Below, piece after piece: positions 13,095 through 63,348 of a DNA stretch of 64,000 nucleotides. The position numbers and the translations under genes are program-made. The stretch is from Streptomyces roseirectus (GTDB lineage Bacteria > Actinomycetota > Actinomycetes > Streptomycetales > Streptomycetaceae), in the NCBI RefSeq assembly GCF_014489635.1, contig NZ_CP060828.1:4750001-4814000 (forward strand), read 5' to 3'. Position 1 is the first letter of the stretch. Each line of letters opens with the position of its first letter. The notes beneath the pieces are model-generated. The model was not told the DNA's origin, ran no database searches, and saw only the letters and a list, made by a program, of their open reading frames with translations.

Positions 13095-13168
13095 TAGCGT
13101 GATACGCAACAACAAAAAAGTGGCCCCACCAGAGCTCGGAGTGTTAGCAGCACTCCGCTGATGGGGCC
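13095..13168 (+). promoter_or_regulatory. A-tract plus nested-hairpin leader before the small orphan gene
   Basis: After a -10-like TAGCGT (13095-13100) comes ACAACAAAAAAG (13109-13120) and a two-tier stem: GGCCCCA (13122-13128) pairs with TGGGGCC (13162-13168), and inside it CGGAGTG (13137-13143) pairs with CACTCCG (13151-13157) around TTAGCAG. An AAGGAA ribosome site and the ATG follow about 35 bases later. Read on the opposite strand, the element is a classic terminator (stem plus T6). The same layout precedes the paralogous gene at 63174. Confidence 0.7.
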
Positions 13169-13203
13169 TGACGACAACCAACCCTAGTAAGGAACCTGTC
13201 GCC

Positions 13204-13563
13204 ATGCGCCACTCTATCGCGCATGCCATTTCGGCATGCCTGCGCACCCTGCTCGCCCTCCTCCTCCCGGCCACGGGCCAACGCCGCAAGCCGTGCCACC
13301 CCGCACCCGCCCCGGCCGACCCCGCCGCCCCCGTCATCCCCGTAAGCCCCTGGTCCCGCCCCTGGACCTCACCCTCCAAGGAAGAAGCCGCCGAACTCTT
13401 CCGCCTCCAGGCCGACCGCCACGCCCATGCCGAGGCCGCCTGGGAACTCCGCCTCCAATGGGAACGCCGCCGCGCCGCCACCCTCGCGACCATGGGCGTC
13501 GACTACCCCTACACCTACGAAGGCGCACCCTTCGGCCTGGACGACTTCAGGGCCAGCGCGTAA
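13204..13563 (+). CDS. Small orphan protein, WSRPWTSPSK family (copy 1)
   Basis: 119-aa protein of unknown function. The N-terminus (MRHSIAHAISACLRTLLALL) is amphipathic to hydrophobic with basic residues and could be a membrane or signal segment. A Pro/Ala-rich linker follows, then the conserved block SPWSRPWTSPSKEEAAELFR, a charged helix rich in Arg/Glu/Ala (coiled-coil-like), and the conserved GVDYPYTYEGAPF near the C-terminus. A paralogue on the minus strand (62827-63174) shares both blocks and the same kind of leader. The ATG has AAGGAA 9 bases upstream. Confidence 0.75.
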   Translation: MRHSIAHAISACLRTLLALLLPATGQRRKPCHPAPAPADPAAPVIPVSPWSRPWTSPSKEEAAELFRLQADRHAHAEAAWELRLQWERRRAATLATMGVDYPYTYEGAPFGLDDFRASA

Positions 13564-13672: not shown

Positions 13673-13900
13673 GTGAGCCGTACCGTCATCGACCTCGACG
13701 ACGAAGCGCTGGAAGCAGCCGCCAAGGAGCTGGGGACCACGACCAAGCGCGACACGATCAATACCGCGTTGCGTGAGATCGTGGCGCGCAACCGCCGCCT
13801 GCGCGCCCTGCACGAGCTTCAGGACCTCGCGGCGGAAGGCGCTCTCGACGTGGAACTCCTGCTGGACAAGCGCAACTACCGTGGTGGATCCGCCCGTTGA
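13673..13900 (+). CDS. vapB: VapB-type antitoxin
   Basis: 75-aa antitoxin. The N-terminal DNA-binding part SRTVIDLDDEALEAAAKELG, then TTTKRDTINTALREIV, is typical of actinobacterial VapB (DUF2191-type). The C-terminal part (LHELQDLAAEGALDVELLLD) should wrap the toxin. The GTG at 13673 has GGAAGGGG upstream. It ends in a TTGA overlap with vapC, so antitoxin and toxin are translationally coupled. The palindromes upstream suggest repression by the VapBC complex. Confidence 0.88.
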   Translation: MSRTVIDLDDEALEAAAKELGTTTKRDTINTALREIVARNRRLRALHELQDLAAEGALDVELLLDKRNYRGGSAR

Positions 13901-14307
13901 GCGTCGCGGACTACCTCATCGACACCTCGGCCCTCGCCCGGGTGCTGCTTCGCCGGGCGACCGAGGAGTGGGAGCGTCGCATCGGCGCCGGGTTGGTGGC
14001 CCTGTGCGACATCACCGAGTTGGAGGTCCAGTACTCGGCCCGCTCCTCGGCCGACCGCGAGGCCATCGGGGAACGCCTGAACCAGTTCACCTGGTGCCCG
14101 GTGCCGGAGGGCGTCTTCCGGCGTGCCCGCGTGGTCCAGGAACAGCTCACCGCGAAAGGCGAGCACCGCAGCGCGGGCCCCGTCGACCTCCTGGTCTCCG
14201 CCGTCGCGGAGGAAGCAGGTCTGACACTGCTCCACTACGACCGCGACTTCGAGACGATCGCGCGAACGACGGGACAACCGGTGCGCATGATCGACCTCAA
14301 GGGGTAA
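13897..14307 (+). CDS. vapC: VapC-type PIN-domain toxin
   Basis: 136-aa PIN-domain ribonuclease. The acidic metal-binding residues are all present: D9 (LIDTSAL), E41 (DITELEV), D97 (GPVDLLV) and D115 (HYDRDFE), so the toxin looks intact. Family members cleave tRNA or rRNA unless bound by VapB. The start is TTG at 13897, overlapping the vapB stop. The pair sits between an orphan gene with a structured leader and the paa regulator, in a patch of accessory genes. Confidence 0.9.
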   Translation: MSVADYLIDTSALARVLLRRATEEWERRIGAGLVALCDITELEVQYSARSSADREAIGERLNQFTWCPVPEGVFRRARVVQEQLTAKGEHRSAGPVDLLVSAVAEEAGLTLLHYDRDFETIARTTGQPVRMIDLKG

Positions 14308-62246: not shown

Positions 62247-62830
62247 GCGGGTGAGCCAGGGGTGGGGGCCGTAGGTTCGGGTGATCGCGTCGGCGAGCCA
62301 GGCGCGTTGGGGGGTGGTGAGGAGGGGGAGGGTGGTGGCGAAGTCGGTTTCGTCTTTGGGGCGTGGGGAGTTGGCCTTGTAGTAGAGCTGGATCTCGGGG
62401 TGGAGGTAGGGGAGGCCGGTCGGGGAGAGGGCACCGAGGGTGGAGATGGGGCGGCGGACGGAGGGGTTGCGGCGGGAGATCCAGTCCGTGCCGGACTCGG
62501 ACGCCTCGTCGAGCATGAGTGGGAGGCGCCAGGGTTCGCCGGGGCCGGGGCGGCACCAGATGTCGTGGACGGTGGGGCCGAGAAGTTCGCCCGGGAGCCA
62601 GGGGCGGAGCGCGCCCGGAGGATCAGCGGCTCACAACTCCCAGCCTGAGAGGGCTTGTTGGGCGGCGTGTTGGTCCCGGCGCAGGTGGAGGACATCGACG
62701 TCGGAGCGGGGGCGGAAAGGGCGGCCGACGGCCAGTTCGATGGCGTGGCCGCCCGCGATCCACCAGGGTGCTCTTAACTCGGCGAGGAGTTCGGCCAGTT
62801 CGGGGAGGGGGAGAGGAGCCCCGGGGTCAG
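62223..62830 (-). pseudogene. Nucleotidyltransferase gene with in-frame TGA
   Basis: The minus-strand frame reads LAELRAPWWIAGGHAIELAV, then RPRSDVDVLHLRRDQHAAQQ, the nucleotidyltransferase core with GG and DVD motifs. A TGA stop occurs at 62631-62633, directly after SGWEL. The same frame then continues with AADPPGALRPWLPGELLGPT and VHDIWCRPGPGEPWRLPLML through to the normal end near 62223. No start codon is visible upstream of the core, where the frame runs into the 3' end of the neighbouring small gene. It contains a TTA codon. Aminoglycoside-adenylyltransferase-like proteins are the closest family I recognise. Confidence 0.75.
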
Positions 62831-63174
62831 GCTGTCAGGGGGAAGTCTGTGAAGGGGGCGCCCTCGTAGGTGTACGGGTAGTCGATGCCCAGGGAGGCGA
62901 GGGCGGCGGCGTGGCGGCGTTCGCGTTGGAGGTGGAGTTCGTGGAGGCGGCGGGATTCTTCGGCCTCGGCCTGGCGGCGGAAGATTTCGGCGGCTTCGGC
63001 CTTTGAGGGGCTGGTCCAGGGGCGGGACCAGGGGCTTTCCGGGATGACCGGGGTCGCGAGAGGGGACTTGGGGGCCGTCGGGGTGAGGTGGGCGGCGGTG
63101 TGGCGGCCCGGGCGGCGGCGGGGGAGGAGGATGCGCAGGGCGCAGGAAAGGGCGTGCACGATAAAATCGCGCAT
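62827..63174 (-). CDS. Small orphan protein, WSRPWTSPSK family (copy 2)
   Basis: 115-aa paralogue of the protein at 13204. Shared blocks are MRxxIxHAxSxxLRxLL at the N-terminus, SPWSRPWTSPSKAEAAEIFR in the middle, a charged helix, and GIDYPYTYEGAPF near the end; overall about half the residues look identical. The N-terminus may be a membrane or signal segment. AAGGAG lies 10 bases before ATG 63174. The upstream leader repeats the A-tract and nested-hairpin layout of the first copy. Function unknown. Confidence 0.75.
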   Translation of the reverse strand: MRDFIVHALSCALRILLPRRRPGRHTAAHLTPTAPKSPLATPVIPESPWSRPWTSPSKAEAAEIFRRQAEAEESRRLHELHLQRERRHAAALASLGIDYPYTYEGAPFTDFPLTA

Positions 63175-63208
63175 AGGTCGATCAGCTCCTTCGTAGCTGT
63201 CTCGGCTA

Positions 63209-63256
63209 GCCCCGTTGGATCGTTGGCGCGATCCTTCGGGGCGCTTTTTTGTGTTG
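63209..63256 (-). promoter_or_regulatory. A-tract plus nested-hairpin leader before copy 2
   Basis: In the gene's direction: ACACAAAAAAGC (63245-63256), then GCCCCG-AA-GGATCG, loop CGCCAA, CGATCC-AA-CGGGGC (63242 down to 63209), then about 34 bases to the ATG. On the plus strand the same sequence is a textbook terminator with six T. It mirrors 13109-13168. Confidence 0.7.
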
Positions 63257-63348
63257 TGGTGACAGACCGTAGGGGCAAGTGACGCAAGTGGAGAAGGGGA
63301 TTCCGAGGATTCACTCTTTCGGGTGAACTTCCCCGTAGTACTTAAGAG

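Follow-up and report, generated by a model that had tools for sequence, protein, structure and literature searches.

In the SymE/SymR system of Escherichia coli, the 5' end of the symE mRNA is fully complementary to a small RNA encoded in cis, and there is a separate transcriptional repressor, according to the available text of the report (PMC1891008). The SAS and ESAS of cluster K mycobacteriophages are repeated conserved sequences at ribosome sites, some with an upstream inverted repeat, as described in the accessible portions of two papers (PMC3203893, PMC11373665). At the whiJ/abaA/bldB loci of Streptomyces venezuelae, iosA lies beside paralogues of whiJ (XRE) and bldB (DUF397) and is activated through the XRE protein, as stated in the accessible part of that study (PMC10294661). 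In three streptomycetes, the available text on antisense RNA reports 129 shared genes with one in at least one species and only 11 with one in all three (PMC3765725), so conserved cis-antisense RNAs are few.

The upstream sequences of relatives of two small genes in Streptomyces roseirectus gave one order of elements: an A-rich tract, a hairpin (P1), a second hairpin (P2) around the Shine-Dalgarno sequence, and the start codon. As in SymE/SymR, a protein gene would be under a cis-antisense RNA over the mRNA 5' end, here an RNA predicted from sequence. The likeness is one of description; SymE belongs to the AbrB superfamily, whereas the present element recurs before many unrelated genes. The proposed mechanism would work as SymR does on symE, and membership of the type I toxin-antitoxin systems is not claimed.

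The start-associated SAS/ESAS repeats are, like this element, common to unrelated gene families in the available descriptions. The 13-bp SAS GGGATAGGAGCCC was found before the start, with up to 2 mismatches, in 0 of 246 loci, and the best matches had 3 mismatches, at 2 loci. In the text available, the authors of the ESAS work saw little evidence that the repeats form a hairpin in mRNA, whereas P1 covaries here; ESAS is described as holding a putative promoter, while in 76 of our 163 loci there is a -10-like box 5' of P1; and the accessible SAS/ESAS text mentions no in-frame motif, unlike the element here. By this sequence test the element is not SAS/ESAS, although these are the nearest described phage feature found. 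The iosA gene is comparable as a small gene beside an XRE regulator gene. However, its mRNA is given as leaderless in the accessible text, and an XRE gene stands at only some of our loci, others having GntR or none found. The element was undescribed in the literature searched (most subscription papers were outside its scope) and may sit in supplementary Streptomyces antisense lists.

Layout of the two leaders

The window is a 64,000-nt stretch of S. roseirectus (GCF_014489635.1, contig NZ_CP060828.1, 4,750,001-4,814,000). The leaders of its two small genes, copies 1 and 2, are two subtypes of one start-site element, with the following features.

Copy 1:
13095..13100, + strand: TAGCGT, likely -10 box of the mRNA promoter (sequence; TANNNT lies 5' of P1 elsewhere)
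about 13109-13120, + strand: A-rich tract ACAACAAAAAAG (sequence; as minus-strand RNA, a U tract behind P1')
13122..13168, + strand: P1, two-tier hairpin of type A (fold)
13172..13201, + strand: P2, CGACA (13172-13176) with TGTCG (13197-13201), Shine-Dalgarno sequence (13189-13193) in the loop (fold)
13204..13563, + strand: small protein of 119 aa, ATG at 13204, 35 nt after the stem (no Pfam/NCBIfam family)
13211..13216, - strand: TAGAGT, -10-like motif within codons 3-5 (sequence)
13114..13204, - strand: predicted antisense RNA of ~90 nt (from the motif and the terminator signals of P1)

Copy 2:
63267..63272, - strand: TACGGT, likely -10 box of the mRNA promoter (sequence)
63245..63250, + strand: T6 behind P1', equal to the A tract of the mRNA (sequence)
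63209..63242, - strand: P1 of type B (fold; model R1 match at 1.8e-18, this leader being itself among the 21 sequences from which R1 was built)
63183..63199, - strand: P2, CAGCT with AGCTG, its 3' arm overlapping the Shine-Dalgarno sequence at 63191-63186 (sequence)
62827..63174, - strand: small protein of 115 aa, ATG at 63174, 34 nt after the stem (sequence)
63162..63167, + strand: TAAAAT, -10-like motif within codons 3-5 (sequence)
63174..63250, + strand: predicted antisense RNA of ~76 nt

The sequence-only reading had described an A-tract, a stem, a ribosome site and a small protein at both loci, and the coordinates and folds confirmed this arrangement. The copy 1 leader folded at -40.6 kcal/mol against -27.4 kcal/mol for its shuffles (z -4.1), and the copy 2 leader at -32.8 against -16.9 kcal/mol (z -6.0); 0 of 200 shuffles were as good in either case. 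All 14 type A leaders keep the five P2 pairs of copy 1 without change. By eye, two ORFs downstream of copy 1 (13674-14307, + strand) resemble a ribbon-helix-helix antitoxin and PIN toxin pair.

Subtypes, distribution and folding

Three leader subtypes were distinguished: A (copy 1), B (copy 2) and C (most other Streptomyces loci seen). Their common architecture, proteins and motif suggest that they are homologous. No single model found all of them; R1 represents type B, R2 type C and R3 type A, with rough E-values. At E up to 0.01, R1 matched 42 and R2 matched 157 of 199 Streptomyces genomes, the weak R1 matches including plain hairpins without P2 (6 of 30 fetched loci). R2 also matched 133 of 197 genomes in the order (E 0.001) and 43 of 296 in the class (E 0.0001), 22 of them outside Streptomyces, with 16 of 114 genera represented in all. 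Among the 199 sampled genomes R3 (E 0.001) matched only its own; type A leaders also occur in loci of S. niveiscabiei and S. acidiscabies (L046-L051, L053, L055). Strict P1 patterns matched 61 viral stretches, and in two Gordonia phages, Vivi2 and Spooky, R2 found the leader in front of an annotated HNH gene. R2 gave no match at the HNH genes of two other phages, Piccadilly (Streptomyces) and Ariel (Mycobacterium). Rfam 15 matched only a tRNA elsewhere in the window at the gathering score, matched nothing in 20 loci with type C leaders, and gave just two weak matches, outside the leaders, in 11 loci at E up to 1. The hairpin is part of an uncatalogued RNA element carried by many actinobacteria and by some of their phages.

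The counts below come from several sets of related sequences, and significance is therefore overstated. The "seed" set of 54 loci was drawn from the first 77, without the damaged or leaderless L007, L009, L012, L013, L071-L074, L076 and L077, the incomplete L063 and L064, the weak or leaderless hits L014-L016, L020, L031, L035, L038, L045 and L067, L070 (no start codon) and the duplicate L057. The "CM-found" set of 31 was drawn from 60 loci (L078-L107 and L115-L144), without 15 already in the seed set, the duplicate L119, the partial L105, L143 (wrong place), six lacking P2 or the family gene (L094, L095, L099-L101, L103), and the other-protein loci L125, L131, L136, L139 and L142, where the in-frame motif described below was present in 4 of 5, not in L125. 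A set of 80 loci was chosen among about 150 R2 matches listed, the ORF not being used in the choice. Forty loci of other genera were hand-picked among the matches listed of 22 genomes, one of which (L285) looks false. The 61 viral stretches comprised 42 distinct ones that passed a start-codon rule, 11 without a start by that rule and 8 repeats. P1 was located in 163 of 165 loci.

In the 80 R2 matches, 98.3% of cells were paired, a figure flattered by fitting the alignment to the R2 model, compared with 35-59% when the partner was slid. Both-sided changes occurred in 9 of 13 pairs and were plain in P2 (AU, GC, CG) and in the upper tier of P1; in P2, 92.5-100% of cells were paired. Inside subtypes alone the covariation was modest (2 of 23 pairs in A, 5 of 16 in B). 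The sequence-only reading had argued for structural covariation from two copies, which cannot prove it; the 80 loci of another subtype do show it. Its broader claim of a conserved structured RNA was borne out by the R2 matches in the 157 genomes, with P1 and P2 covarying. In the predicted fold, P2 contains the Shine-Dalgarno sequence or overlaps it; in type A that sequence lies in the loop. Loops and linkers differ from subtype to subtype.

Two further candidates noted by eye were dropped: a third hairpin at the ORF start of type B, which is not kept in type C, and an upstream mini-ORF from RTGGCC after the type C P1, which is out of frame or stopped at several loci. The type B P1 loops of L012, L023, L052 and L082, compared with the others, read CCGATTAGGCCCGG and CCGGGCCTAATCGG, which are mutual inverse complements; this suggests inversion at the palindrome.

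Proteins, cargo genes and regulators

The proteins of copies 1 and 2 share 56% identity. Copy 1 had been taken as one of a pair, a view we revised because copies 1 and 2 are two of 13 strong paralogues in their genome. All 13 lie between 3.44 and 6.17 Mb of the 9.95-Mb single contig, away from the arms. The leader is intact in 9 and, by eye, damaged or lost in 4 (L007, L009, L012, L013); these show internal deletions or loss, as if the leader were deletion-prone, and in L007 the 5' arm of P1 is joined straight to later codons. The protein search returned 92 relatives, the organism-named ones being from Streptomyces or Streptantibioticus, and the copy 2 protein was not found in plasmid and phage records. 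The view that the family is undescribed was supported by the lack of a Pfam or NCBIfam match (one Pfam match was far below the cut-off). The AlphaFold model of the copy 1 protein (pLDDT 78.6, pTM 0.41) contains a helix at residues 2-20, a long helix at 59-96 and a middle without helix or strand. In five of the six leaderless family members found in operons (L071-L074, L076, L077), a rare TTA codon is at position 5.

The leader had also been tied to genes of the WSRPWTSPSK type. This tie failed, since the leader also precedes unrelated proteins, with RLLPW-type proteins, DUF6415, HNH and LAGLIDADG endonucleases and an antirepressor among the cargo, and since the leader is missing from the 6 operon-type members and damaged or lost in the 4 paralogues. 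The sequence-only reading had named leader-free members and unrelated cargo as refutations; what they overturn is the link with this protein, and the RNA element itself is unaffected. We rejected the leader as a private property of the protein family because unrelated cargo follows it in both chromosomes and viral stretches. When 14 viral or other-genus cargo proteins were searched with Pfam, one matched an antirepressor and several carried an HNH, LAGLIDADG or endonuclease VII domain. Three cargo proteins from Streptomyces chromosomes were DUF6415. RLLPW-type proteins are encoded by the second gene in L026 and L033 and directly behind the leader in L169, L171, L187, L220 and L222. In the S. 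roseirectus genome, type C leaders stand before unrelated-looking proteins at L145, L146 and L148; L146 is just downstream of an XRE gene, on whose other side lies a type A leader (L003). In Gordonia phage Vivi2 (L358), the leader-bearing HNH gene is opposite in direction to the neighbouring minor tail genes.

At 116 of 165 loci a GntR (68) or XRE (48) regulator gene, recorded as divergent each time, lies within ~600 nt upstream; because the profiles had been iterated on the very same loci, weak members may be overcounted. Of 99 control windows taken from the window sequence, one was matched by these profiles. Type A is an exception, the regulator being absent in 13 of 14 loci, and neither window copy has one. 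In other genera a regulator was present in 22 of 40 loci.

The in-frame motif and the polarity of P1

The motif A-NNN-TA was found within coding bases 1-16 in 220 of 247 loci, and in 0, 1 and 1 of them in the next three 16-base windows. It lies mostly at +8 to +13, i.e. codons 3-5, and the element thus runs into the reading frame. In the 162 loci found without the ORF beyond codon 2, +8 was A in 133, +12 was T in 127 and +13 was A in 134, while +9 to +11 varied. Codon 4, although its residue varies, ended in T in 75 of 85 leader-bearing genes, compared with 3.0 expected from the codon usage of the window and 9.1 from the genes' own later codons. The motif was present in 73 of the 80 loci picked by the RNA model alone (44/48, 9/9 and 20/23 by protein class, with classes assigned by text pattern), being equally frequent before genes of the GRHR/RPY superfamily, of the RLLPW type and of other proteins. 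It was also present in 41 of 42 viral loci, in 28 of 40 loci outside Streptomyces, and in both Gordonia phage leaders (Vivi2 and Spooky), which are outside the 247. The 27 loci without it include 12 of the 40 other-genus loci. Because the six leaderless operon-type relatives have no motif, and the motif is kept across proteins, it travels with the leader and not with the protein.

By regulator, the motif was found in 61 of 68 loci with GntR, 44 of 48 with XRE and 46 of 49 with none found. These equal frequencies, together with P2 stems whose sequence changes while pairing is kept, count against a site acting at the DNA level, in which P1, P2 and the motif would be bound by a regulator or by recombination and the element would be a mobile unit. 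Such a site would account for the recurrence of one element in viral contigs and ahead of unrelated genes, and for the inverse-complementary loop variants; we consider it very improbable.

Read on the opposite strand, A-NNN-TA is TANNNT, the streptomycete -10 box. According to the accessible text of a start-site study, 80.4% of the start sites mapped in S. coelicolor have TANNNT, and only 58.6% have a -35 (PMC4895711). A -35 for the antisense direction was no better than at control spacings in 151 Streptomyces loci (2.19 vs 2.43-2.58), showed only a slight excess in 40 viral loci (2.92 vs 2.27-2.65) and almost none in 28 other-genus loci (2.57 vs 2.29-2.50).

In its sequence, P1 resembles an intrinsic terminator acting on the opposite strand, as had been proposed. 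The 8 nt 5' of P1 contained 3.4-5.2 A by group mean, with 5.2 in type A and 3.4-3.5 in type C, whose U tract is weak. The P1 mismatches comprised 24 A-C (G-U in an antisense RNA), 1 G-U and 7 others, and this 24:1 count, driven largely by two loose pairs of one subtype, became 10:1 without them. P1 was more stable as antisense in 121 of 163 loci and as sense in 34; the corresponding counts were 34 and 6 of 42 in viral loci and 24 and 14 of 39 in other genera, and the antisense strand was more stable in 13 of 13 type A hairpins located (of 14 leaders). P2 displayed no strand bias (18 vs 18). The 8 nt 3' of P1 contained only 0.8-1.5 T by group mean (0.8 in type A), and without a T run there the attenuator that had been suggested is unlikely in the sense direction.

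P1 may instead act as an insulator that ends stray antisense transcripts before the promoter of the divergent regulator, without a dedicated antisense RNA. Its antisense polarity and the divergent regulators at 116 of 165 loci agree with such a role, which nevertheless leaves the in-frame motif unexplained and does not fit the 49 of 165 loci where no such regulator was found. We regard it as a distinctly unlikely explanation.

A purely sense-strand regulator, in which P1 stabilises the mRNA 5' end, P2 sequesters the Shine-Dalgarno sequence and A-NNN-TA helps initiation, is unlikely. It agrees with the covarying P2 that holds the Shine-Dalgarno sequence, and TANNNT 11-33 nt 5' of P1 (76 of 163 loci, against a background of 1.3%) suggests that P1 is near the mRNA 5' end. 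However, it explains neither three fixed bases with three varying between them nor the antisense bias of P1. Variants would make P2 a thermometer, a riboswitch or the site of an RNA-binding protein; the loops and linkers vary between subtypes, unlike a ligand pocket.

Proposed antisense control

P1, P2 and the opposite-strand TANNNT at +8 to +13 co-occur irrespective of the protein or the neighbouring regulator. We propose, with a probability of about 0.52, that the leader and the first five or six codons form one portable control cassette with a cis-antisense RNA that blocks translation. An antisense start is suggested because the in-frame TANNNT faces P1 and P1 is terminator-like on that strand. 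RNA polymerase would initiate near the start codon on the opposite strand, heading to P1, transcribe through the Shine-Dalgarno region, P2 and P1, and stop at P1' and the U tract. The predicted product, a cis-antisense RNA of ~75-90 nt, would pair with the whole 5' UTR and block translation, and the duplex may be exposed to RNase III. P2 would be a second brake that lowers basal initiation, and the divergent GntR or XRE gene, where present, would switch the mRNA promoter. When the mRNA outran the antisense RNA, the cargo would be made, i.e. in Streptomyces small proteins whose N-terminal helix is hydrophobic, and phage-type cargo that includes endonucleases and an antirepressor.

The unclear antisense -35, the 27 of 247 loci without the motif, the weak type C U tract and the unbiased P2 count against antisense control. 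The layout of Vivi2 does so too, because its neighbouring genes (two minor tail proteins and one hypothetical) are encoded on the same strand as the proposed antisense RNA, and a strong terminator there would be harmful to the phage.

More tentatively, and at somewhat less than even odds, the element may be a class-wide safety cassette of actinobacteria and their phages, with a promoter, an antisense RNA gene and a terminator in ~100 bp around the start codon, moved whole onto nucleases, antirepressors and small membrane-type proteins. If this were true, it would be among the largest cis-antisense RNA families known. Sequence suffices to recognise the family, which is present in roughly four fifths of the Streptomyces genomes sampled and in phages, and the idea could be checked against existing start-site maps. 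New here is that the element extends into the reading frame, with a promoter-like signal hidden under codons. The family would offer a way into many small genes that lack annotation and would bear on how actinophages restrain homing-type endonucleases.
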